Shown in pieces: positions 2,702-12,287 of a stretch of DNA of 23,842 bases. The position numbers and the translations under genes were made by a program. Every line of letters starts with the position of its first letter. Position 1 is the first letter of the stretch. The stretch lies in the IMG/VR virus record IMGVR_UViG_3300030116_002913, positions 1 to 23,842 of that record; one strand, written 5' to 3'. The DNA comes from a virus. The notes below the pieces were generated by a model that saw only the letters and a program-made list of their open reading frames with translations, had not been told where the DNA came from and searched no databases.

Positions 2702-2945
2702 GGACAACATTATCTATTTCTCGAAAGAACAACCCAAGATCGACAAGATCGATTCCTCTGCGGTCGAGGTGTTGTGTGACATTGCAGGCAGGCATCTGGA
2801 TGACGTTGTCATCTTGGGGTCTGACAAGGAGACTGGTGCCATCAAGATGATGACGACACAAGAGGATGTCGCCGACATCCTGTTCTATCTGGAGGTTGCC
2901 AAGAAGGCGATCCTAGATCAGGGCGTCCATGATGGCGAAATTTAA
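2694..2945 (+). CDS. small phage protein of unknown function
   Basis: 83 residues from the ATG at 2694, preceded by AAGGAG about nine bases upstream and overlapping the previous gene by eight bases. The middle (V-V-I-L-G-S-D, then G-A-I-K-M-M-T-T) looks like a beta hairpin, followed by a helix (D-I-L-F-Y-L-E-V-A-K-K-A-I-L). This beta-beta-helix layout recurs in short phage proteins of unknown role. It overlaps the start of the helicase gene, so the two are probably translated together. Confidence 0.55.
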   Translation: MTKDNIIYFSKEQPKIDKIDSSAVEVLCDIAGRHLDDVVILGSDKETGAIKMMTTQEDVADILFYLEVAKKAILDQGVHDGEI

Positions 2946-4380
2946 CTACCGTACGGAGCCTTACGCACACCAGCGTGAGGCTCTGGAACGCTCGTACGAC
3001 AAACACAACTACGCATATTTTATGGAGATGGGGTGTGGCAAGTCGAAGGTACTTATTGACAACGTGGTCTGGCTCTACGAGCAGGGCCGCATTGACACGG
3101 CGGTTATTGTTGCGCCGAAAGGTGTTTACCGCAACTGGGAAACGTCGGAGATTCCCACCCACTTTCCGACCGACATTCCGCATGAGATTTATGTATGGAA
3201 TCCGAGTCCCAACAAGTCACAAGCCGAACGTCTCAAGTCTGGCATTCAAGAGCGTGGCGTCCTCCGCATCCTTCTGGCAAACGTGGAAGGGTTTGCGTCT
3301 AAAAAGCTGCCCGCATTTGTGGGCGCGTTCACACAGGGCAGCACTTTCCTACTTGCTGTTGATGAGTCCACTACAATCAAGAATCCCAAAGCCAAACGCA
3401 CTAAAACGCTGGCGCTCTTCGGTGACAAGGCTGCATACAAAAGAATCCTGACAGGATCTCCGGTGACGAAGTCGCCGATGGATCTGTATGCACAGTGCGG
3501 ATTCATGGATAAGAAGCTGCTCGGCTTCGCATCGTACTACTCGTTTCAAGGGCGGTACGCGATCACCAAGACACAGCGCATGGGCGCACACAGTTTCTTG
3601 CAGATTGTCGGCTATCGGAATCTCGACGAGCTATCGACTAAGCTCGATATGTTTTCGTATCGAGTCACCAAGGAAGAGGCGCTCGATTTACCGGACAAGG
3701 TATACACCACCCGAGAGGTGGGCGTGACCGACGAGCAGCGACAGCACTACATGACATTGAAGAAGCAGGCCATCGCCATGTTCGACAACGGCGATCTGGT
3801 GACGGCGCCGGCTGTGATCACACAACTGCTGCGGTTGCAGCAGGTGCTGTGCGGCCACATCAAAACGGACGACGGTGACCTGATCGAGTTCCCGACCAAG
3901 CGGCTCGATGCGTTGAAGGAGACCATCGAGGAGATGACCGGCAAGGTCATCATCTGGTCGCGCTTCCGCTACGACATCAAGAAGATTGCAGACGAACTGC
4001 GACGGATTCATGGGCCGGGGTCCGTGGTCACATATTTTGGGGACACCACCGATGAACAACGCCAGCAGGCGATCAAGGACTTTCAGTTCGGAGACGCCAG
4101 GTTCTTCGTGGCGAACCCGCAAACCGCAGGCTTCGGGTTGACGCTGACGGCTGCAACGAACGTGATCTACTATGCCAACGACTTCGACTTGGCGACTCGG
4201 ATGCAGTCCGAGGACCGCTGTCACCGGATCGGGCAGAACAACCGAGTCACCTATGTTGATCTGATCACTCCGGGTTCGATTGATCAGCGGATTGTTCGTG
4301 CTCTTCGGGACAAGATCGATCTGTCGGCGAAGGCTCTGGGTGAAGAAGCTCGGAAATGGTTAGAGCTTTCTTCCCCTTGA
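2929..4380 (+). CDS. SNF2-type (SF2) DNA helicase/translocase
   Basis: 483 residues from tandem ATGs at 2929 and 2932; either could be used. The motifs are in order: an N-terminal Q-like motif (Y-x-H-Q-R-E-A), Walker A G35-C-G-K-S, motif Ia V-A-P-K-G-V-Y-R-N-W (61-70), a DExx box D145-E-S-T, motif III T-G-S-P-V (175-179), then in the second RecA-like domain I-I-W-S-R-F, G-F-G-L-T-L-T and motif VI Q-S-E-D-R-C-H-R-I-G-Q (426-436). The Q-x-E-D-R-x-H-R-I-G-Q signature is specific to SNF2 proteins. Such phage enzymes use ATP to move along double-stranded DNA and may clear proteins or remodel forks. Cytoplasmic. It overlaps the previous gene by 17 bases, and its last 116 bases are antisense to the nuclease gene on the other strand. 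Confidence 0.9.
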   Translation: MMAKFNYRTEPYAHQREALERSYDKHNYAYFMEMGCGKSKVLIDNVVWLYEQGRIDTAVIVAPKGVYRNWETSEIPTHFPTDIPHEIYVWNPSPNKSQAERLKSGIQERGVLRILLANVEGFASKKLPAFVGAFTQGSTFLLAVDESTTIKNPKAKRTKTLALFGDKAAYKRILTGSPVTKSPMDLYAQCGFMDKKLLGFASYYSFQGRYAITKTQRMGAHSFLQIVGYRNLDELSTKLDMFSYRVTKEEALDLPDKVYTTREVGVTDEQRQHYMTLKKQAIAMFDNGDLVTAPAVITQLLRLQQVLCGHIKTDDGDLIEFPTKRLDALKETIEEMTGKVIIWSRFRYDIKKIADELRRIHGPGSVVTYFGDTTDEQRQQAIKDFQFGDARFFVANPQTAGFGLTLTAATNVIYYANDFDLATRMQSEDRCHRIGQNNRVTYVDLITPGSIDQRIVRALRDKIDLSAKALGEEARKWLELSSP

Positions 4381-4717
4381 AGTGGCGGTTCTGCGCCTTG
4401 TTCGTGGACACTGGATCGTTGGCGAGTTGATGTGTGTACAAGCCAACGGCACCCGTCTCGAGGTCAACATACAACAGACGCACACCCAGCTTGCGCTGCA
4501 CGTCTGTCAGGTTACGAGCGATTGATGTGCCGGATGAACGAAACGCATGTGTTTTTACGTCGAACAAGTGTGTTTTCCCGTTCGGCGAGATAGCAACGAG
4601 GTCCACTGGCCCCTGTGCCATCACCGGCTGGTAGACGTAGCAGTCTTGGGACAACAACCACTCCGCTGCCAGCAACTCTGATCGCTGACCGTCTCGATTT
4701 TTTTGTGAAGGTCGCAT
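4265..4717 (-). CDS. PD-(D/E)XK family nuclease
   Basis: 150 residues on the - strand, ATG at 4717. The first 60 residues show the PD-(D/E)XK core: helix with E14 (R-S-E-L-L-A-A-E), G-P-V-D39-L-V, and F-D53-V-K55-T, the metal-binding and catalytic set. The layout is that of the small resolvase/homing-like PD-(D/E)XK endonucleases, which cut branched or double-stranded DNA. The last 50 residues are polar and probably disordered, and they are encoded in the part overlapping the helicase gene antisense (4265-4380). It is the only - strand gene in the early half, and it diverges from the RHH regulator gene 72 bases away. It could resolve recombination intermediates or act on foreign DNA; the sequence cannot separate these. 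Confidence 0.8.
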   Translation of the reverse strand: MRPSQKNRDGQRSELLAAEWLLSQDCYVYQPVMAQGPVDLVAISPNGKTHLFDVKTHAFRSSGTSIARNLTDVQRKLGVRLLYVDLETGAVGLYTHQLANDPVSTNKAQNRHFKGKKALTISELLHPEPSPTDRSCPEEHEQSADQSNPE

Positions 4718-5050: not shown

Positions 5051-5617
5051 ATGAGCGATGTGTTTTCGCTTTTTGACGAGGCAGTCGATGCCCAGAAGTT
5101 CGACAATGTGGATGAGACGAAAGGTTCCCGCCTTTCCAATCTCATCCGCGATTCCCTAAAGATCGACGAGGAGATCTCGCAAGCCGAGAAGTACCTCAAG
5201 GATCTTAAATTCAAGAAACGCAAGGTGAATGAAGAGGACATCCCCGCTCTCATGGAAGAGATGGGTATGGAATCTGTCACGGTCGAAGGGCACAAGATCA
5301 CCCTTCGTCAGTTTGTCCATGCCCGCATCCCAGATGACAGGCGGGACGAAGCGTTTGCGTGGCTCCGTTCCATCGGCGAAGGCGACATCATCAAGCACGA
5401 TGTCACCGTGTCATTCAACACAGGGCAGGACAACATGGCCGGCGCTGTGGTCGAAGACTTGCGCCAACAGTATGGTCTGGATCCCGCGCAAAAAACCCAT
5501 GTCCATCCGCAGACGCTGAAGGCATGGGTCCGTAACCGCATTGAGTCGGGTCAGGATATCGACTTCGACCAGTTCGGTGTGTTTGTAGGAACTGAAGCTA
5601 AAATTACGAGGACGTAG
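5051..5617 (+). CDS. conserved phage replication-region protein, function unknown
   Basis: 188 residues, ATG at 5051 with TAAGGAG nearby (spacing about 8). Residues ~35-65 are a charged helix typical of a coiled coil, followed by E-E-D-I-P-A-L-M-E-E-M-G-M, then a mixed alpha/beta part (I-P-D-D-R-R-D-E-A-F-A-W-L-R, V-S-F-N-T-G) and a late motif V-H-P-Q-T-L-K-A-W-V-R. From memory this layout belongs to a widespread family of uncharacterised phage proteins encoded next to DNA-binding and replication genes; I cannot give a function. It is the first gene after the candidate promoter/hairpin, and four bases separate it from the SSB-like gene, so the two probably work together. Confidence 0.7.
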   Translation: MSDVFSLFDEAVDAQKFDNVDETKGSRLSNLIRDSLKIDEEISQAEKYLKDLKFKKRKVNEEDIPALMEEMGMESVTVEGHKITLRQFVHARIPDDRRDEAFAWLRSIGEGDIIKHDVTVSFNTGQDNMAGAVVEDLRQQYGLDPAQKTHVHPQTLKAWVRNRIESGQDIDFDQFGVFVGTEAKITRT

Positions 5618-5621
5618 AACG

Positions 5622-6431
5622 ATGGCTGAAAAGCAAGCTGTAGCGAAAAAGGCGGAGTCGCTACCCGCCAATCTCATGGACGATCTGTACGCTGGTGCAG
5701 GTCAGGGGATGGAGAATATTACCTCCGAGGATATGCAGATTCCGTTTATGCGGATCTTGCAGCCGCTCTCCCCGCAACTGATCAAGACGGACTCGAAGTT
5801 CATCAAGGGTGCGTCTGCCGGTGACATCTTCAACACTGTGACTGGGCAGTTTTGGGAAGGCGACGAAGGCGTGACGATTATCCCGTGCGCCTACGAGATG
5901 AAGTTCCTGGAGTTCCAACTGCGTGAGTCTGGTGGTGGCTTCCTTGGTGAGATCGATCCGAACAACCCTGACATTCGTCAGGCACAGCGGATAAATGCCA
6001 ATGAAATCCTGCCGTCGGGTAACGAGTTGGTCCGTGCTGCTCAGTTCTTGGTCGTGGCTATCGACGAGAACGGTGTAACCCAGCAGATGATTCTCGATAT
6101 GAAGAAGACCCAGATGAAGGTTGCCAAGCAGTGGAACACCCGCCGTGCGGGTATGAAGCTGATGCACCCGGAGAAGGGTCTGTTCACTCCGCCCATGTGG
6201 GCTACGGTGTGGAAGCTGAAGACTGTGCAGGAGAGCAACGACAAGGGTTCGTGGTTCAACTATTCGATCTCCCAGCTTGACATCCAGAGTGTGCCGTCGG
6301 CAGCGGTGCAGGAGTGTAAGGGTCTCTACGAAATGTTCCGCAAGGGCGAGATCAAAACGTCCGCCGGAACTGCCGAAGAGATGAACTCGGCTTCGTCGTC
6401 TCGTCAAGATGACGAAGAGATACCCTTCTAA
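5622..6431 (+). CDS. SSB-like protein with acidic C-terminal tip
   Basis: 269 residues, ATG at 5622. The body (residues ~36-235) has repeated beta-strand-like segments, including M-Q-I-P-F-M-R-I-L-Q, G-V-T-I-I-P-C-A-Y and W-F-N-Y-S-I-S. A Ser/Glu-rich linker follows, then the end D-D-E-E-I-P-F. That ending is nearly identical to the D-D-D-I-P-F tip of bacterial SSB, which recruits helicases, primases and nucleases to single-stranded DNA. The body does not match the short bacterial SSB OB fold that I can recognise, so the single-strand-binding role is inferred from the tip, the length of linker and the position directly before primase, helicase and polymerase genes. Cytoplasmic, likely abundant during replication. 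Confidence 0.6.
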   Translation: MAEKQAVAKKAESLPANLMDDLYAGAGQGMENITSEDMQIPFMRILQPLSPQLIKTDSKFIKGASAGDIFNTVTGQFWEGDEGVTIIPCAYEMKFLEFQLRESGGGFLGEIDPNNPDIRQAQRINANEILPSGNELVRAAQFLVVAIDENGVTQQMILDMKKTQMKVAKQWNTRRAGMKLMHPEKGLFTPPMWATVWKLKTVQESNDKGSWFNYSISQLDIQSVPSAAVQECKGLYEMFRKGEIKTSAGTAEEMNSASSSRQDDEEIPF

Positions 6432-6592
6432 CGTAGTCGGTAACTCGCGCCTGACAGGGGGAGGCGTACCCCAAGAGTGTCTTGATTACGGCTATGGACA
6501 TCGACCATTTGGGTGACCTGCAATCTGGGTCTTTACGGTGTTAGATAACGAGGCACTTACCCCCTGCCCTAACCCAACTAGAGGGGACAGCT
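6432..6592. other. longest intergenic gap, primase leader
   Basis: 161 bases without a supported gene. It holds a weak hairpin (CGCCT 6448-6452 with AGGCG 6462-6466), the short palindrome GTTAGATAAC (6540-6549), and complementary CAGGGGG / CCCCCTG tracts near its two ends. No convincing promoter pair, tRNA or terminator was found. The ribosome site GAGGGG lies just before the primase ATG. Confidence 0.4.
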
Positions 6593-8128
6593 ATGAACTT
6601 GGACGAAAGGTTCATGGCCGCGTTTGAGGGTTTCAAATCGGCACATGGACAGACGATTATTTCAGAGGAGCGCCGCGCCGGGAAACAGAAGGCACAGTCC
6701 CGCACAGTCCGCACTCCAATTACACTCGAACTTATCCGGTCGCACCTGAATGGTGTGAAGGGGGTTGGTTCCATACCGATTAACGAGGACAACAAGTGTA
6801 AGTTCGGTGTTCTCGACATTGACGAATACCCACTAGACCTTGCCGCCATTGATCGGCGCTTGCGTGACCTCGAAGTCCCAGCCGTGGTCTGTCGCTCGAA
6901 GTCTGGTGGTGCACACATATACTTCTTCTTCACGGAGTTCATGAGCGCAGGGGAGTTCCGTGACAAGGCTTCGGAGATCGCCGCCTATGTTGGGTATGGT
7001 CGGTGTGAAATCTTCCCGAAGCAGGAGCAGGTTCTGCACGAGCGTGGTGACGTTGGTAACTTTATCAACCTGCCATACTTCGATGCAGAGCAAACCCTGC
7101 GCCATGCAATCCTTGAGGATGGGTCTGCCGCCACCCTCGAGGAGTTCCTTGATCTTGCCGACAGCCGTGCCATCACTCCGGAGGCTTTCGTCGCTCTTAC
7201 CTTCGGGGTTGTCGAAGACGAGTTCAAGGAATGGGCGCCCTGCCTGAACTGTATGTTCGGGCAGGGCATTCCCGAGGGCACCCGCAACACGGTGATGTTT
7301 GCCGCTGCGGTTGGGTGCAAGAAGGAGCAGCCCGAGACATGGAAACAACGACTCGAAGAAATCAACCAGCGGTTCGCCAATCCACCGCTGCCGGCGTCCG
7401 AGATCGTCACGATCCAGAACCAGCACGACAAGAAGGACTACGGATTCCCGTGCGATCAGGAGCCGCTACGCAGCTTCTGCAACAAGACGCTATGTAAGAC
7501 CAAGAAGTTCGGTATCGGCGTCACAAGCATGGCTGTGGACGTTACAGGGCTATGTGTAGTGAAGTCCGAGCCGCCGGTCTGGTTCTGCGATGTAGGTGGC
7601 CGTCGTGTCGAGTTGACAACCGACGACTTGCAAACACCACAGAAGTTTCAGAAGGCATGCATGGAACAGATTCATGTCATGCCGCCCATGATGAAGATGC
7701 AAGACTGGCAGACCATCGTCACCATGCTGATGGAAGACATGAACCACATCGACGTGCCGCATGAACTGACATACAAGGGCCAGTTCAACGAGCTTGTCGA
7801 GGCGTATTGTGATGGCCGAGTACAAGCACAGTCGGCAGAAGAGATCGCACTGGGCAAGCCGTACACCGACGAGGACGAGGGACTGACGTACTTCAAGCTC
7901 GAAGCGTTGATGAAGTTCCTGCGTAACCAGAAGTTCGACAGCTACAGCCGGGGTCAAATACAGGAGCGGCTGAAGGAGTTGAACAACGGCGGGCAGGCAA
8001 ACGGTCAGCGGCGGTTCAAGACAACGAAGGGCGACACCATGCCGATGCGCGTGTGGTGGGTGCCTGCCAAGTCTAACGAGGTCGAGATCCCGGCCATCGA
8101 TGTAGTTGGAGAGGAGATTCCGTTTTGA
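6593..8128 (+). CDS. archaeo-eukaryotic-type (AEP/TOTE-like) primase
   Basis: 511 residues, ATG at 6593 with GAGGGG ahead. The N-terminal domain has the AEP catalytic pattern: F-G-V-L-D75-I-D77 (metal-binding motif I), S-K-S-G-G-A-H108-I-Y (motif II) and E-I-F-P-K-Q (139-144) followed by G-N-F-I-N-L-P-Y. These resemble the primase domain of TOTE-type systems. The central part carries C217/C220, C287, C296 and C301, a conserved-looking metal or Fe-S site as in PriL or PriCT-type domains. The C-terminal ~200 residues are helical, and the protein ends G-E-E-I-P-F, copying the SSB tip of the upstream gene. It would lay RNA or DNA primers for the polymerase. The stop overlaps the helicase start. 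Confidence 0.8.
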   Translation: MNLDERFMAAFEGFKSAHGQTIISEERRAGKQKAQSRTVRTPITLELIRSHLNGVKGVGSIPINEDNKCKFGVLDIDEYPLDLAAIDRRLRDLEVPAVVCRSKSGGAHIYFFFTEFMSAGEFRDKASEIAAYVGYGRCEIFPKQEQVLHERGDVGNFINLPYFDAEQTLRHAILEDGSAATLEEFLDLADSRAITPEAFVALTFGVVEDEFKEWAPCLNCMFGQGIPEGTRNTVMFAAAVGCKKEQPETWKQRLEEINQRFANPPLPASEIVTIQNQHDKKDYGFPCDQEPLRSFCNKTLCKTKKFGIGVTSMAVDVTGLCVVKSEPPVWFCDVGGRRVELTTDDLQTPQKFQKACMEQIHVMPPMMKMQDWQTIVTMLMEDMNHIDVPHELTYKGQFNELVEAYCDGRVQAQSAEEIALGKPYTDEDEGLTYFKLEALMKFLRNQKFDSYSRGQIQERLKELNNGGQANGQRRFKTTKGDTMPMRVWWVPAKSNEVEIPAIDVVGEEIPF

Positions 8129-9648
8129 CCGCGACAACAATCTTCGGACCCCCAGGCACGGGCAAGACCACACGGCTGATCAACATTGTCCAGCAGGAAC
8201 TGGACCGTGGAACGGCGCCCGACAAGATTGCTTTCGTGTCCTTCAGCAAGAAGGCTGCACAGGAAGCACGGGACCGTGCTGCGGAGAAGCTGGGCATCAA
8301 CGAACAGCAGATGATCTGGTTCCGTACGCTGCACTCCTTCGCGTTCCAGAACCTTGGCCTCAGTGGTCAGAAGGTCATGAAGGGCGCTGACTACAACAAG
8401 GTCGGTGAGTTGTTGGGTCTGCCCATGCTCTCGTCTGCTTCTGTCCGCATGGACGATGGCATTCTGTTCTCGGCAGGTCAGTCCAAGGGCGATCAGTATC
8501 ACGGCATCCTCCAGCTTGCTCGGGTAACTGGCAAGTCAATGGAGGAGATGTTCAACGAAAAGAACACAGACTATCGTCTGCACTTCCAGCAACTGAAGGT
8601 CATGGATCAGGTGATCCGGGACTACAAGAAGATGACCGACAAGGTAGATTTCGTGGACATGATCGAACAGTTCGTGATGCAGGGTAACTGTCCGCTGCTC
8701 GACGTGCTGATCGTGGACGAGGCCCAAGACTTGGTGCCACTCCAGTGGCGTATGGTGCATGAAGTGATGAAGCCGTGCGCCAAGCGCATCTATTTTGCCG
8801 GCGACGACGATCAGTGCATCTACTCGTGGATGGGCGTGAACGTCAACGACTTCCTGACCGCATCAGACGACAAGGTCGTGCTCGATAAATCCTACCGTCT
8901 GCCCTCGCAGGTGCATGGGCTGGCGGACAGTGTGGCAAAACGACTAGCTGTTCGGCAGCAAAAAGTTTGGTCTCCGGTCGAAGAAGGTGGTGCCGTCGTA
9001 TGGCATCATGATATCCTCGATGTGGACCTACGAACTGGCGAATGGTTGATTCTTGCCCGTACGAATAACATCGCGAACAAGGTTGCGAACACCCTCAAGG
9101 AACAGGGCTACCTGTTCTGGCGCGAGGGGCCAGGCTGGTCCATCTCTCCGAATGTTCTAAACGGAATCGAGGTGTGGTTGCGACTATGCAAAAATCAGTT
9201 TGTGTCCCCGGCGGACTTGAAGAGCTTCTCCAAACTTATCCAATCAACGGTCATCACCAAGTCTGGCCGACGCAAACTTACAAACCTCGACCCCGAAGCA
9301 ACCTACAACCTCACCGATTTACAGAACCTGTGCGAGTTGACCGCGACTGCACAGACACCGTGGTACGAAGTGATCCGTGTGTCGGAGCAGGAGCGGATCT
9401 ACATTACTTCTGTACGTCGGATGGGCGAGTCTATCTTGTCGGGCAAGCCGAGGATACGGATCTCGACGATCCACAAGGCGAAGGGTGGGGAGGCAGACAA
9501 CGTCCTCCTCCTGCTTGAGTCCAGCCCTGTCATAACGAGAGCCGAAGACACCGAAGGTGAGATTCGAACCTTCTATGTGGGTATGACTCGTGCCCGCAAA
9601 CAGCTACACCTTGTCGAGTCACACTCCAACCACAGGTTCGAACTATGA
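8125..9648 (+). CDS. UvrD/Rep-like SF1A DNA helicase
   Basis: 507 residues from a TTG at 8125, which overlaps the primase stop (TTTTGA); GAGGAG lies about nine bases ahead. All SF1 motifs are in order: Walker A G8-P-P-G-T-G-K-T-T16, motif Ia F-V-S-F-S-K-K-A-A (38-45), T-L-H-S-F (68-72), motif II V-D-E-A-Q-D-L (197-203), motif III G-D-D-D-Q-x-I-Y-S-W-M-G (226-237), motif IV S-Y-R-L-P (256-260), motif V S-T-I-H-K-A-K-G (447-454) and motif VI Y-V-G-M-T-R-A-R (484-491). It is shorter than UvrD (about 720 residues), with reduced accessory domains. It would unwind DNA 3' to 5' using ATP. It is a good candidate for the replicative helicase of this phage because no DnaB-type helicase is seen. Confidence 0.9.
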   Translation: MTATTIFGPPGTGKTTRLINIVQQELDRGTAPDKIAFVSFSKKAAQEARDRAAEKLGINEQQMIWFRTLHSFAFQNLGLSGQKVMKGADYNKVGELLGLPMLSSASVRMDDGILFSAGQSKGDQYHGILQLARVTGKSMEEMFNEKNTDYRLHFQQLKVMDQVIRDYKKMTDKVDFVDMIEQFVMQGNCPLLDVLIVDEAQDLVPLQWRMVHEVMKPCAKRIYFAGDDDQCIYSWMGVNVNDFLTASDDKVVLDKSYRLPSQVHGLADSVAKRLAVRQQKVWSPVEEGGAVVWHHDILDVDLRTGEWLILARTNNIANKVANTLKEQGYLFWREGPGWSISPNVLNGIEVWLRLCKNQFVSPADLKSFSKLIQSTVITKSGRRKLTNLDPEATYNLTDLQNLCELTATAQTPWYEVIRVSEQERIYITSVRRMGESILSGKPRIRISTIHKAKGGEADNVLLLLESSPVITRAEDTEGEIRTFYVGMTRARKQLHLVESHSNHRFEL

Positions 9649-9929
9649 AAAACAGAGAGCACTTCCTGAAGCAGGCAGAAGAACTGATCAATGGACCGAG
9701 GGCCGAGGACTATGGACCGGCGCTCCTGAACCATGAACGGATTGCTACAATCTGGAACGTGCTGCTCCGCAAGAAACTGTTGGACAAGATCACGCCAACC
9801 GAGGTTACGGCGATGATGGTCGGTTTGAAGCTGGCTCGGCTTGCCGAGGACATGCACAAGGATGATTCGTGGGTAGACATTATTGGCTACGCTGCGCTGG
9901 GCGGGGAGATCTCGAACGATGAAAGCTGA
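9645..9929 (+). CDS. DUF6378 family protein
   Basis: 94 residues, ATG at 9645 overlapping the helicase stop as ATGA. The pattern E-L-I-N-G-P-R-A-E-D-Y-G near the start, N-H-E-R-I-A-x-I-W, then M-M-V-G-L-K-L-A-R-L and K-D-D-S-W-V-D-I-I-G-Y-A-A-L near the end is that of DUF6378, a short all-helical domain common in phages. The D-S-W-x-D-I-x-G-Y-A segment recalls the metal-binding helices of all-alpha nucleotide pyrophosphohydrolases (MazG-like), so a role in nucleotide clean-up is possible but unproven. It overlaps the polymerase gene by 11 bases. Confidence 0.8.
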   Translation: MKNREHFLKQAEELINGPRAEDYGPALLNHERIATIWNVLLRKKLLDKITPTEVTAMMVGLKLARLAEDMHKDDSWVDIIGYAALGGEISNDES

Positions 9930-11793
9930 TCTGTTTGACATTGAGGAAGAGTGGTATCCGCCGTCATCCCTGCCGGATCTGACAAACTGTGAGCGGATTG
10001 CGATTGACCTTGAAACCTGTGACCCGAACCTGACGACCCTGGGTCCGGGTTGGTGTCGCGATGACGGCTATGTCATCGGGTTTGCGGTAGCTGCCGGCGA
10101 CTTCGTTGGATACTTTCCGATTCGACATCAAGGTGGCGGCAACATGCCAGAGAAAACTGTGGTCAACTGGTTGAAGAAACAACTTGCCACCCCGCACATT
10201 GAGAAGATTATGCACAACGCGATGTACGATCTGGGCTGGCTGCGCTGGGCCGGCATCGAGGTGCAGGGCAAGATCATCGACACGATGGTGGCGGCACCGC
10301 TGCTGAACGAGAATCGTCGTTACTACAACTTGAACAGTCTGGCCGGTGAGTATCTCGGTGAATGGAAGAACGAGAAGATGCTGAAGGCTGCGGCATCGAT
10401 GTATGGTGTCGATCCGAAGGGAGAGATGTGGAAGCTACACGCCTCGTTCGTAGGCAAGTATGCGGAGCAGGACGCCGCTGTTACACTGCGCCTGTGGGAT
10501 CGCCTGCGGGCCGACATCGACAAGGATGAAGTCAACAGCATCTTCGAGTTGGAGACTTCACTGATTCCACTGCTGCTCGACATGAAGTCGAAAGGTGTGC
10601 GCGTCGATGTGGACAAGGCACAAGATGTGCAGAAGGAACTGAAGCGCCGAGAGGATGCGTTACTTGAAGAAGTAAAGAAAGAGACCGGCGTCCTTGTGGA
10701 GCCGTGGGCCGCTGCATCTATAGCAAAGGCGTTCGACGCCCTTGGGTTGAACTACAACAGGACAGAAAAGTCGAATGCGCCAGCCTTTACAAAAGCATTT
10801 CTTGCGAACCACACTCACCCGGTGGCGCAGAAGATTGTACGCCTGCGTGAGTTTAACAAGGCCAACACGACATTCATTGAAACCATTCTTGAACATTCGC
10901 ATAACGGTCGTATCCATTGTGATTTTCACCCTCTTCGTTCAGATGAAGGGGGCACAGTTACCGGACGATTTTCTTCGTCCAACCCGAACCTCCAACAAAT
11001 CCCGGCCCGTGACCCCGAAATCAAAAAGATGATCCGGGGTCTCTTCATCCCGGAGGATGGAGAGAAGTGGGGCAGCTTCGACTACGCATCACAGGAGCCA
11101 CGGTGGCTGGCACACTATTGCGCCACGCTGACCGGCGCTCGGCGGGATCCACAGATTGATGATGTGGTGCGAATGTACCACGAAGGCAATGCCGACTTCC
11201 ACCAGATGGTGGCGGACATGGCAGGTGTGTCACGCAAGGAAGCCAAGACTGTGAACCTCGGCATCATGTACGGCATGGGTCGGAAGAAGCTGGCCGGCAC
11301 CCTCGACATCACCGAGGAGGACGCCAAGGGGCTGTTGCACAAGTATCACGACAAGGTGCCGTTCGTGAAGGGCATGGCCGATCTGGCGATGAACCAAGCG
11401 ATGGACAAGGGCGTGATTCGAACATGGCTTGGACGCAAGTGTCGCTTCGACATGTGGGAGCCGAAGGCATTCGGCTACAACCGTGCGCTGCCTCTCGAAG
11501 AAGCTGTCAAGGAATATGGTGGCAAGGGTATGATTCGTCGCGCGTTTACCTACAAGGCACTAAATCGACTGATCCAAGGGTCGAGCGCGGACCAGACTAA
11601 GAAGGCGATGGTGACGTGTTATGAAGAAGGACTGGTGCCGATGCTCACAGTTCACGACGAATTGTGTTTTAGCGTGAACTCTTGTGAACAATCCGACAAA
11701 ATTGTCGATATCATGAAGAATTGTGTACCAGACTTGAAGGTGCCGTTCGACGTGGATGCCGAGCTTGGCAGTAATTGGGGCGAGGTGGGGTAG
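9919..11793 (+). CDS. polA: family A DNA polymerase with 3'-5' exonuclease
   Basis: 624 residues from the ATG at 9919; a longer form from 9883 is rejected because GGGGAG precedes 9919 and the exonuclease domain starts soon after. The exonuclease has Exo I D30-L-E-T, Exo II H-N-A-M-Y-D104 and Exo III Y181-A-E-Q-D185, all intact. The polymerase has T-G-R-F-S-S-S-N-P-N-L-Q-Q-I-P (348-362), motif A F-D-Y-A-S-Q-E (387-393), motif B R439-x3-K443-x3-L447-x3-Y451-G and motif C V-H579-D-E. There is no 5'-3' exonuclease domain, as usual in phages. L447 is at the position of E. coli Phe762. It copies the phage genome with the nearby primase and helicase. Confidence 0.95.
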   Translation: MKADLFDIEEEWYPPSSLPDLTNCERIAIDLETCDPNLTTLGPGWCRDDGYVIGFAVAAGDFVGYFPIRHQGGGNMPEKTVVNWLKKQLATPHIEKIMHNAMYDLGWLRWAGIEVQGKIIDTMVAAPLLNENRRYYNLNSLAGEYLGEWKNEKMLKAAASMYGVDPKGEMWKLHASFVGKYAEQDAAVTLRLWDRLRADIDKDEVNSIFELETSLIPLLLDMKSKGVRVDVDKAQDVQKELKRREDALLEEVKKETGVLVEPWAAASIAKAFDALGLNYNRTEKSNAPAFTKAFLANHTHPVAQKIVRLREFNKANTTFIETILEHSHNGRIHCDFHPLRSDEGGTVTGRFSSSNPNLQQIPARDPEIKKMIRGLFIPEDGEKWGSFDYASQEPRWLAHYCATLTGARRDPQIDDVVRMYHEGNADFHQMVADMAGVSRKEAKTVNLGIMYGMGRKKLAGTLDITEEDAKGLLHKYHDKVPFVKGMADLAMNQAMDKGVIRTWLGRKCRFDMWEPKAFGYNRALPLEEAVKEYGGKGMIRRAFTYKALNRLIQGSSADQTKKAMVTCYEEGLVPMLTVHDELCFSVNSCEQSDKIVDIMKNCVPDLKVPFDVDAELGSNWGEVG

Positions 11794-11798
11794 GTTTC

Positions 11799-12287
11799 AT
11801 GAAGCTGTGGGAAAAACTTTTTGAGTATGACGGTGAAGCAGGTGTCTTACTCTGGAAGGAAGGTTTACGAAAAGGAAAAAGAGCGGGCAGTTTGAGGGAC
11901 AGTCAGTGGTCAAGGCGTCAAGTGCGGTACACAAGTGACGACAAAAAAACAAAATATGTGTGGTACGAGCACCGAATCATATGGTCGTTGGTTTATGGTG
12001 ATATCCCTGAAGGGCATGTAATCGACCACATCGATGGAGATGGGTGCAACAATCACATCGAGAACCTTCGGTGTGTCACGCCACAAATAAATTCTAGAAA
12101 CAGGAAACTTCCTAGCAACAACACTTCTGGTGTCATGGGTGTGGACTGGATAAAAAAGAAGCGCCGGTGGAGAGCATCAATTTACCACACGGGTAAGCAC
12201 ACAGTGCTAGGAACGTACAAGACATTCGTAGAAGCCGTGGCTGCTAGGAAGGCCGCAGAAAAAGTATTAGGGTACATATCCAGATGA
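11799..12287 (+). CDS. free-standing HNH homing endonuclease with AP2 domain
   Basis: 162 residues, ATG at 11799, five bases after the polymerase stop. The first half has the HNH core: Y-E-H58-R-I-I-W, V-I-D76-H77-I-D-G-D and N-H-I-E-N89-L-R. The second half (about 111-158) is an AP2 DNA-binding domain: S-G-V-M-G-V-x-W, R-W-R-A-S-I, L-G-T-Y-K-T-F-V-E-A-V-A-A-R. This HNH-AP2 pair is typical of mobile endonucleases that copy themselves into polymerase and other core genes. The gene is visibly richer in A/T (runs such as CAAAAAAACAAAATATG) than the polymerase, suggesting transfer. No intron is seen in the adjacent polymerase, which reads intact, so it is free-standing. Confidence 0.9.
   Translation: MKLWEKLFEYDGEAGVLLWKEGLRKGKRAGSLRDSQWSRRQVRYTSDDKKTKYVWYEHRIIWSLVYGDIPEGHVIDHIDGDGCNNHIENLRCVTPQINSRNRKLPSNNTSGVMGVDWIKKKRRWRASIYHTGKHTVLGTYKTFVEAVAARKAAEKVLGYISR

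Follow-up and report, generated by a model that had tools for sequence, protein, structure and literature searches.

Why should two adjacent replication genes of a phage encode proteins that finish in almost the same few residues? The virus record IMGVR_UViG_3300030116_002913, whose whole stretch of 23,842 bases was analysed here and is called the window, carries in its early region a gene for a gp34-family protein followed by a gene for a primase of the AEP (Prim-Pol) type, and both products end in acidic residues followed by Ile-Pro-Phe. Such an end resembles the C-terminal tip (SSB-Ct) of the bacterial single-stranded DNA-binding protein (SSB), which reads DDDIPF also in the phage hosts Klebsiella and Pseudomonas (PMC4137731). 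A preliminary description of the window had noticed the two ends, regarded an SSB-style tip on a primase as unusual, and proposed that the two proteins recruit, or compete for, the same host or phage partners.

Gp34 and the primase share a conserved C-terminal tip

As the preliminary description stated, gp34 (269 amino acids) ends in ...SSSRQDDEEIPF, with DDEEIPF as its final residues, and the primase (511 amino acids) ends in ...AIDVVGEEIPF. These two were the only open reading frames (ORFs; at least 60 codons, read from stop to stop) of the window that ended in PF, and they were likewise the sole ones in contigs G001 and G004. Two further PF-ending ORFs were present in DSL-LC04, both short (65 and 78 amino acids) and unrelated, and the full tip was confined to gp34 and the primase in all four genomes examined.

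Homologues were gathered from viral contigs, isolate phages and bacterial genome bins, which gave 480 loci with both genes. When diverse homologues were aligned from their C-terminal ends, a check that had been proposed earlier, the last residues proved to be conserved and the linker did not: a terminal Phe was found in 78/80 gp34 and 57/61 primase sequences and Pro at position -2 in 73/80 and 56/61, respectively, with column entropies of 0.2-0.6 bits at -1 and -2, whereas most positions N-terminal to -5 exceeded 3 bits. Among 145 primase and 141 gp34 tails, all distinct, each of the four Pro codons and the two Phe codons was in use at -2 and -1, and with synonymous codons thus free, the P-F end is selected at the protein level. 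Counted over all distinct tails, 225/323 of gp34 and 212/355 of the primase ended in PF, compared with none of 1,077 tails of neighbour families from the same loci (SNF2 helicase 0/235, gp33 0/250, UvrD helicase 0/261, DUF6378 0/92, PolA 0/239). The homologues and this control rule out chance or an artefact of ORF ends.

Within the window clade (to about 54% identity) the tips read EEIPF, DEIPF or DDIPF, and nearly every intact primase ended in xPF, that of L100 ending in VPL; a tip that is absent or varies freely among close primase homologues was looked for, and this was not the case. The alignments support the view that in both proteins the tip is a conserved, putative protein-interaction motif of the SSB-Ct type.

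Gp34 is a putative OB-fold SSB and the primase has a Prim-Pol fold

Gp34 matched PF23977 over the full domain (E 1.4e-60; residues 11-245 spanning profile positions 3-235 of 235) and phrog_2402 (E 3e-64), a PHROG without known function. In the phage collection this family (PF23977/phrog_2402) is represented by 504 records, 361 of which are Pseudomonas phages, and nearly all of these proteins are labelled hypothetical. The AlphaFold2 (AF2) model of gp34 (mean pLDDT 90.9) contains a predicted OB-fold core at about residues 40-240 and a low-confidence tail over the last 20-25 residues (pLDDT 66-52 over the last 20). A Foldseek search of the model against the PDB gave no match at E <= 0.001, and the gp34 sequence profile matched none of the PDB sequences. 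In VIA-align comparisons, for which a Z of 8 is the threshold for showing relationship, the top matches were phiC31 RDF (Z 7.6), BRCA2 OB domains (6.6) and the T4 gp32 core (Z 6.5, root-mean-square deviation (rmsd) 5.2 over 157 residues, below that level), followed by RB69 gp32 (6.4), the gp32-Dda complex (5.7) and then mainly SSB and PriB proteins at about 3.5. OB folds that bind single-stranded DNA (ssDNA) dominate this list, which supports the OB fold predicted for gp34.

PF23977 was the only Pfam family matched by gp34, with no hit to the SSB family PF00436 in gp34 or elsewhere in the window record. A search of 30 records of related phages, nine of them isolate or complete-genome records and some of them fragments, also gave no PF00436 match; SSBs of other families were not searched for. 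An exception of another kind is Vibrio phage K300 (L165, 3947-4741 and 5176-5655), which encodes gp34 with an annotated SSB next door: here it is the SSB that ends in DDGIPF, and gp34, which ends in DDIPAEM, has lost its PF, as though the tip had passed to whichever protein acts as the SSB. Because of the OB-fold matches, the missing canonical SSB in the 30 records and the exception of K300, we read gp34 as probably the phage's own non-canonical SSB in the tip-bearing lineages, where it would bind ssDNA. The literature searched contained no paper that describes PF23977, DUF7307 or Pam3 gp34 as an SSB.

The primase matched PF22548 (E 1.5e-17) and phrog_21866 (E 1.7e-91) and is AEP-TOTE-like. 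Its model (pLDDT 87) comprises an AEP domain (residues 1-204), a helical PriCT-like region, a winged-helix-like domain at about residues 390-493 and disordered last 20 residues (pLDDT 38-55). The AEP domain superimposed on the CAPP (CRISPR-associated Prim-Pol) structure 7nqf with a VIA-align Z of 21.3 (rmsd 2.6, 186 residues), and the DxD residues D75/D77 together with S104, G106 and H108 of the sGxH motif were invariant in 61 sequences. The modelled protein thus has the Prim-Pol catalytic fold and belongs to the AEP/Prim-Pol superfamily.

Tips vary between lineages and are usually alike within one genome

Outside the window clade the tips differ, yet our comparison supports that the two tips of one genome usually resemble each other. 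Written as gp34/primase, the pairs include QDIV/ENIV in relatives of pelagiphage HTVC027P, APF/SPF in freshwater relatives of DSL-LC04, where acidic residues are missing, and IPFA/PPFV in MW202510, as well as EIPF/EIPF, EPEL/EPDL, GNY/PNY, DIPF/DIPF, APY/DPY, TPY/EPY, QPY/APY, SVM/DVL and DII/DIV. Similar ends were seen also when gp34 lies several genes from the primase, as in Providencia phage Kokobel2 (HSEF/KAEF) and Acinetobacter phage DMU1 (GGEF/KSEF). A Klebsiella phage has SEDM/RSEF, and AEEF occurs in a Pseudomonas phage.

The terminal residue was the same in both proteins at 393/480 loci, many of which are close relatives, and a terminal Phe or Tyr was present in both at 103/141 lineage representatives. 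To compare cognate with shuffled tail pairs, one representative was drawn per primase cluster. Cognate tails were more alike than shuffled ones with 61 clusters (floor p of 0.002 in all draws) and with 39 clusters (maximum p 0.01). Phylogenetically independent pairs changed in the same rather than the opposite direction, 2.7 vs. 0.3 for the terminal Phe and 4.2 vs. 0.0 for Pro at -2. Concerted evolution of the two tips has support but is not proven.

Among the phages with a tipless primase, the HTVC023P-like ones (L162, L429-L507) have a conserved primase end of their own, [DE][FY]HTGKF[RK]T, possibly a docking motif of a different kind.

A shared docking partner and its alternatives

We propose, with confidence only a little better than even, that the OB-fold SSB gp34 and the AEP primase carry docking peptides of the same type for one shared, most likely phage-encoded replisome partner, which is handed from one to the other. 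Each flexible tail would end in a docking peptide made of acidic residues, a hydrophobic residue, Pro and a terminal Phe with its free carboxylate, and the peptides of both proteins would fit the same kind of pocket. The partner would be held in turn by gp34 coating the ssDNA and by the primase; such an alternating hold would couple priming to takeover of the primer and keep the primase close to gp34-coated ssDNA. That the dialects are alike within a genome suggests one receptor for both tips, probably encoded by the phage, and phage origin is favoured because dialects such as those of the Klebsiella and the Pseudomonas phage do not follow the DDDIPF of the host SSB.

Candidates for such a phage-encoded receptor are the family A polymerase, the SF1 or SNF2 helicase, and gp33. 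Every AEP-primase phage record that was tested contained PolA, including those with a tipless primase, and gp34 tips were also found in phages with only Pol III alpha detected, two such proteins ending in EEF and EQF. The type of polymerase was therefore rejected as a predictor of the gp34 tip, and co-occurrence points to no receptor. The SF1 helicase, named in the preliminary description as an example of such a partner, may be the receptor, but gp34 tips were found also where no SF1 helicase gene adjoins gp34.

Several observations weigh against a shared partner. Every structural Z of gp34 is below 8. With 15 deep clusters the matching of tails was not significant (median p 0.13), and the independent events were too few for significance (median p 0.125 for Pro at -2). 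Nanhaivirus and the HTVC023P clade retain the gp34 tip with primases ending in GEA/GQD or HTGKFRT, and L533 retains the primase tip only. Residues -4/-3 of the window-clade primases are shaped by a ribosome-binding signal of the helicase gene, discussed below, so that the E-E pair is in part a constraint of the DNA.

A broader form of the shared-partner proposal is tentative, and we put it somewhat short of even: there would be one docking code with lineage dialects (IPF, PY, IV, EL, EF) that change jointly with a co-evolving phage-encoded receptor, in a broad, uncharacterised type of replisome. If this is true, the replisomes of different phages within one cell would be wired in mutually exclusive ways.

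The alternatives are taken here in descending order of probability. Gp34 itself could be the receptor, with its own tail lying in its own or a neighbour's ssDNA groove and the primase copying that tail to bind gp34. This would explain the matched dialects without a third protein, and the acidic tails of T7 gp2.5 and Enc34 ORF6 do occupy neighbouring OB grooves (PMC5686142). We nevertheless consider it unlikely, as the tip has been lost from gp34 alone in L533 and from the primase alone in Nanhaivirus and the HTVC023P clade, and a groove that works by charge needs no near-fixed Pro-Phe.

Both tips could instead mimic the host SSB tail and so recruit or block PriA, RecO, RecQ, Pol III chi or Exo I. 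The window-clade tips are nearly identical to DDDIPF, and SSB-Ct pockets bind many partners (PMC4137731, PMC5872125), but ends such as QDIV, EPEL, HSEF and SEDM in other lineages should not suit these pockets; tips of this kind include those of Klebsiella and Pseudomonas phages whose hosts keep DDDIPF (PMC4137731), and the phages supply their own primase, helicases and polymerase. Mimicry of the host tail is hence improbable. With respect to the earlier proposal, a shared partner for the two proteins remains the best reading, and it is the host RecQ, PriA and RecO pockets that the dialects make less likely.

A further explanation is that each of the two proteins uses a generic motif, an acidic stretch with terminal Phe, for a partner of its own, and that their matching reflects common descent only. 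The phylogeny-corrected tests that fall short of significance, the matching that fades at 15 clusters and the decoupled lineages agree with it. Against this, the direction of change was almost always concordant, above all for Pro at -2, and unusual dialects (IV, PY, EL) occur in both proteins of one genome, so that we find independent use hard to credit.

The primase tip might lastly be a by-product of signals of the helicase gene. The primase GEE codons, GGAGAGGAG (8108-8116), double as a good Shine-Dalgarno (SD) sequence 8 nucleotides before the helicase TTG at 8125; this start overlaps the primase TGA in the window, with an ATG after the stop in several relatives. GAGG, GGGG or AGGAG recurs at primase positions -4/-3 in relatives and accounts for some of the E/R/G and V/A/S variation at these positions. 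Yet such a DNA-level constraint, a partial cause of E-E, is very improbable as the source of the tip and is rejected for P-F, since the SD sequence does not extend to Pro and Phe, whose synonymous codons are all in use, primases ending in NDIPF keep acid-I-P-F with no SD overlap, and gp34 bears the same tip although no gene overlaps its end in the window.

Organization of the locus

The early operon has the order SNF2-type helicase, gp33/DUF7307, gp34, primase, UvrD-like helicase, DUF6378 and family A DNA polymerase (Table 1).

Table 1. Positions of the features of the replication locus in the window
Feature	Position	Strand	Basis and remarks
SNF2-type SF2 helicase (phrog_62)	2929-4380	+	Profile matches; candidate partner
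gp33 family (DUF7307, PF23984)	5051-5617	+	Profile match and synteny; conserved neighbour upstream of gp34; candidate partner
gp34-family protein (PF23977 Pam3_Gp34, phrog_2402), 269 amino acids, stop TAA	5622-6431	+	Pfam, PHROG, AF2 model
gp34 linker, residues 245-262, variable, low-confidence (pLDDT 50-70)	6354-6407	+	pLDDT, C-anchored column entropy
gp34 C-terminal tip DDEEIPF (codons)	6408-6428	+	Conservation in homologues; synonymous codons free
gp34-primase intergenic region	6432-6592	+	Hairpins in most related gaps
AEP (Prim-Pol) primase, 511 amino acids, stop TGA	6593-8128	+	PF22548, phrog_21866, structure match
Primase disordered tail, residues 492-505	8066-8107	+	pLDDT
Primase C-terminal tip GEEIPF (codons)	8108-8125	+	Conservation in homologues; codon analysis
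UvrD-like SF1 helicase, TTG start overlapping primase stop	8125-9648	+	Profile matches; candidate partner
DUF6378	9645-9929		Profile match
Family A DNA polymerase	9919-11793	+	Profile match; candidate partner by analogy with T7 gp5

Judged by product names and C-termini, the most constant neighbours of gp34 are the SNF2-type helicase and gp33, and gp33 (DUF7307) is succeeded by gp34 in nearly all loci examined. The C-terminus of gp33 is usually a short basic stretch (KITRT, KITIKE, KPKVKKSKS), opposite in charge to the gp34 tail.

Most of the related intergenic regions between gp34 and the primase contain hairpins, which are strong in many relatives, sometimes precede a T-run as in an intrinsic terminator, and vary in sequence between clades (e.g., L088:2372-2437, L034:2075-2212, L023:3962-4045). 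The gap of the window itself folded no better than shuffled sequences (z 0.67), and an Rfam search of the gp34-primase gap gave no match. A hairpin at this place may restrict read-through and so yield more transcript and protein for gp34 than for the primase.

Between the SNF2 helicase and gp33 a small ORF on the minus strand (4265-4717) matched phrog_5018 (E 2e-6) and is possibly a nuclease of the PD-(D/E)XK type, judged from a motif seen by eye; DSL-LC04 has an annotated nuclease near the helicase. Immediately 3′ of the polymerase gene lies a free-standing, homing-endonuclease-like HNH + AP2 endonuclease (11775-12287).

Comparison with known replication systems

With bacterial SSB, gp34 shares a near-identical acidic-IPF tip that forms the very C-terminus and follows a linker predicted to be disordered, but it does not belong to PF00436. 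The E. coli primase DnaG acts as a receptor for the SSB tip (PMC5872125, PMC6783573), whereas the primase described here bears the tip. A phage SSB tip that serves a phage-encoded partner is known from HK620, in which the tip NDYPPF is required for the action of the phage Sak4 on SSB-coated ssDNA (PMC5928155); that SSB, however, is canonical, and the tip is on the SSB only. CAPP provides the closest solved catalytic domain to the window primase (residues 1-204), but the window protein is a phage replication primase, and it scored only 40 bits with the NCBIfam CAPP model NF040561, for which the cut-off is 200. The T4 and RB69 gp32 core is among the best structural matches of gp34, with Z below the level of a relationship.

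The closest parallel to the arrangement is phage T7, whose SSB gp2.5 ends in EDGDF and whose primase-helicase gp4 ends in NDTDF, a precedent which shows that a tipped primase is less unusual than it had first appeared. The acidic tail of gp4, in which Phe is the last residue, binds to basic patches on gp5, the T7 polymerase of family A (PMC12593628, PMC12230644), and the gp2.5 tail has been implicated in binding both the polymerase and the primase-helicase (PMC5686142). In both systems an OB-fold SSB, putative in our case, and a primase each have an acidic tail with a terminal Phe, next to a replicative polymerase of family A. They differ in that the T7 primase is a TOPRIM primase fused to the helicase and not an AEP, and in that the T7 tips are of the DF and not of the IPF type; Pfam and PHROG searches with gp34 and the primase gave no match to a T7-type family, and no homology to gp2.5 or gp4 was found. 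The shared tip, kept by selection, suggests that gp34 and the primase both dock on one partner at the fork, two tip donors with one receptor, which would be the logic of gp2.5 and gp4 carried out by unrelated proteins. PF23977/phrog_2402 would thereby gain a testable function as a phage SSB with a docking tip, and the dialects, a set of naturally paired mutants, could be used to find the receptor and to study the exchange of primase and SSB at the primer. The T7 principle of an SSB and a primase coupled by their tails would then extend to an unrelated and widespread replisome with an AEP primase.

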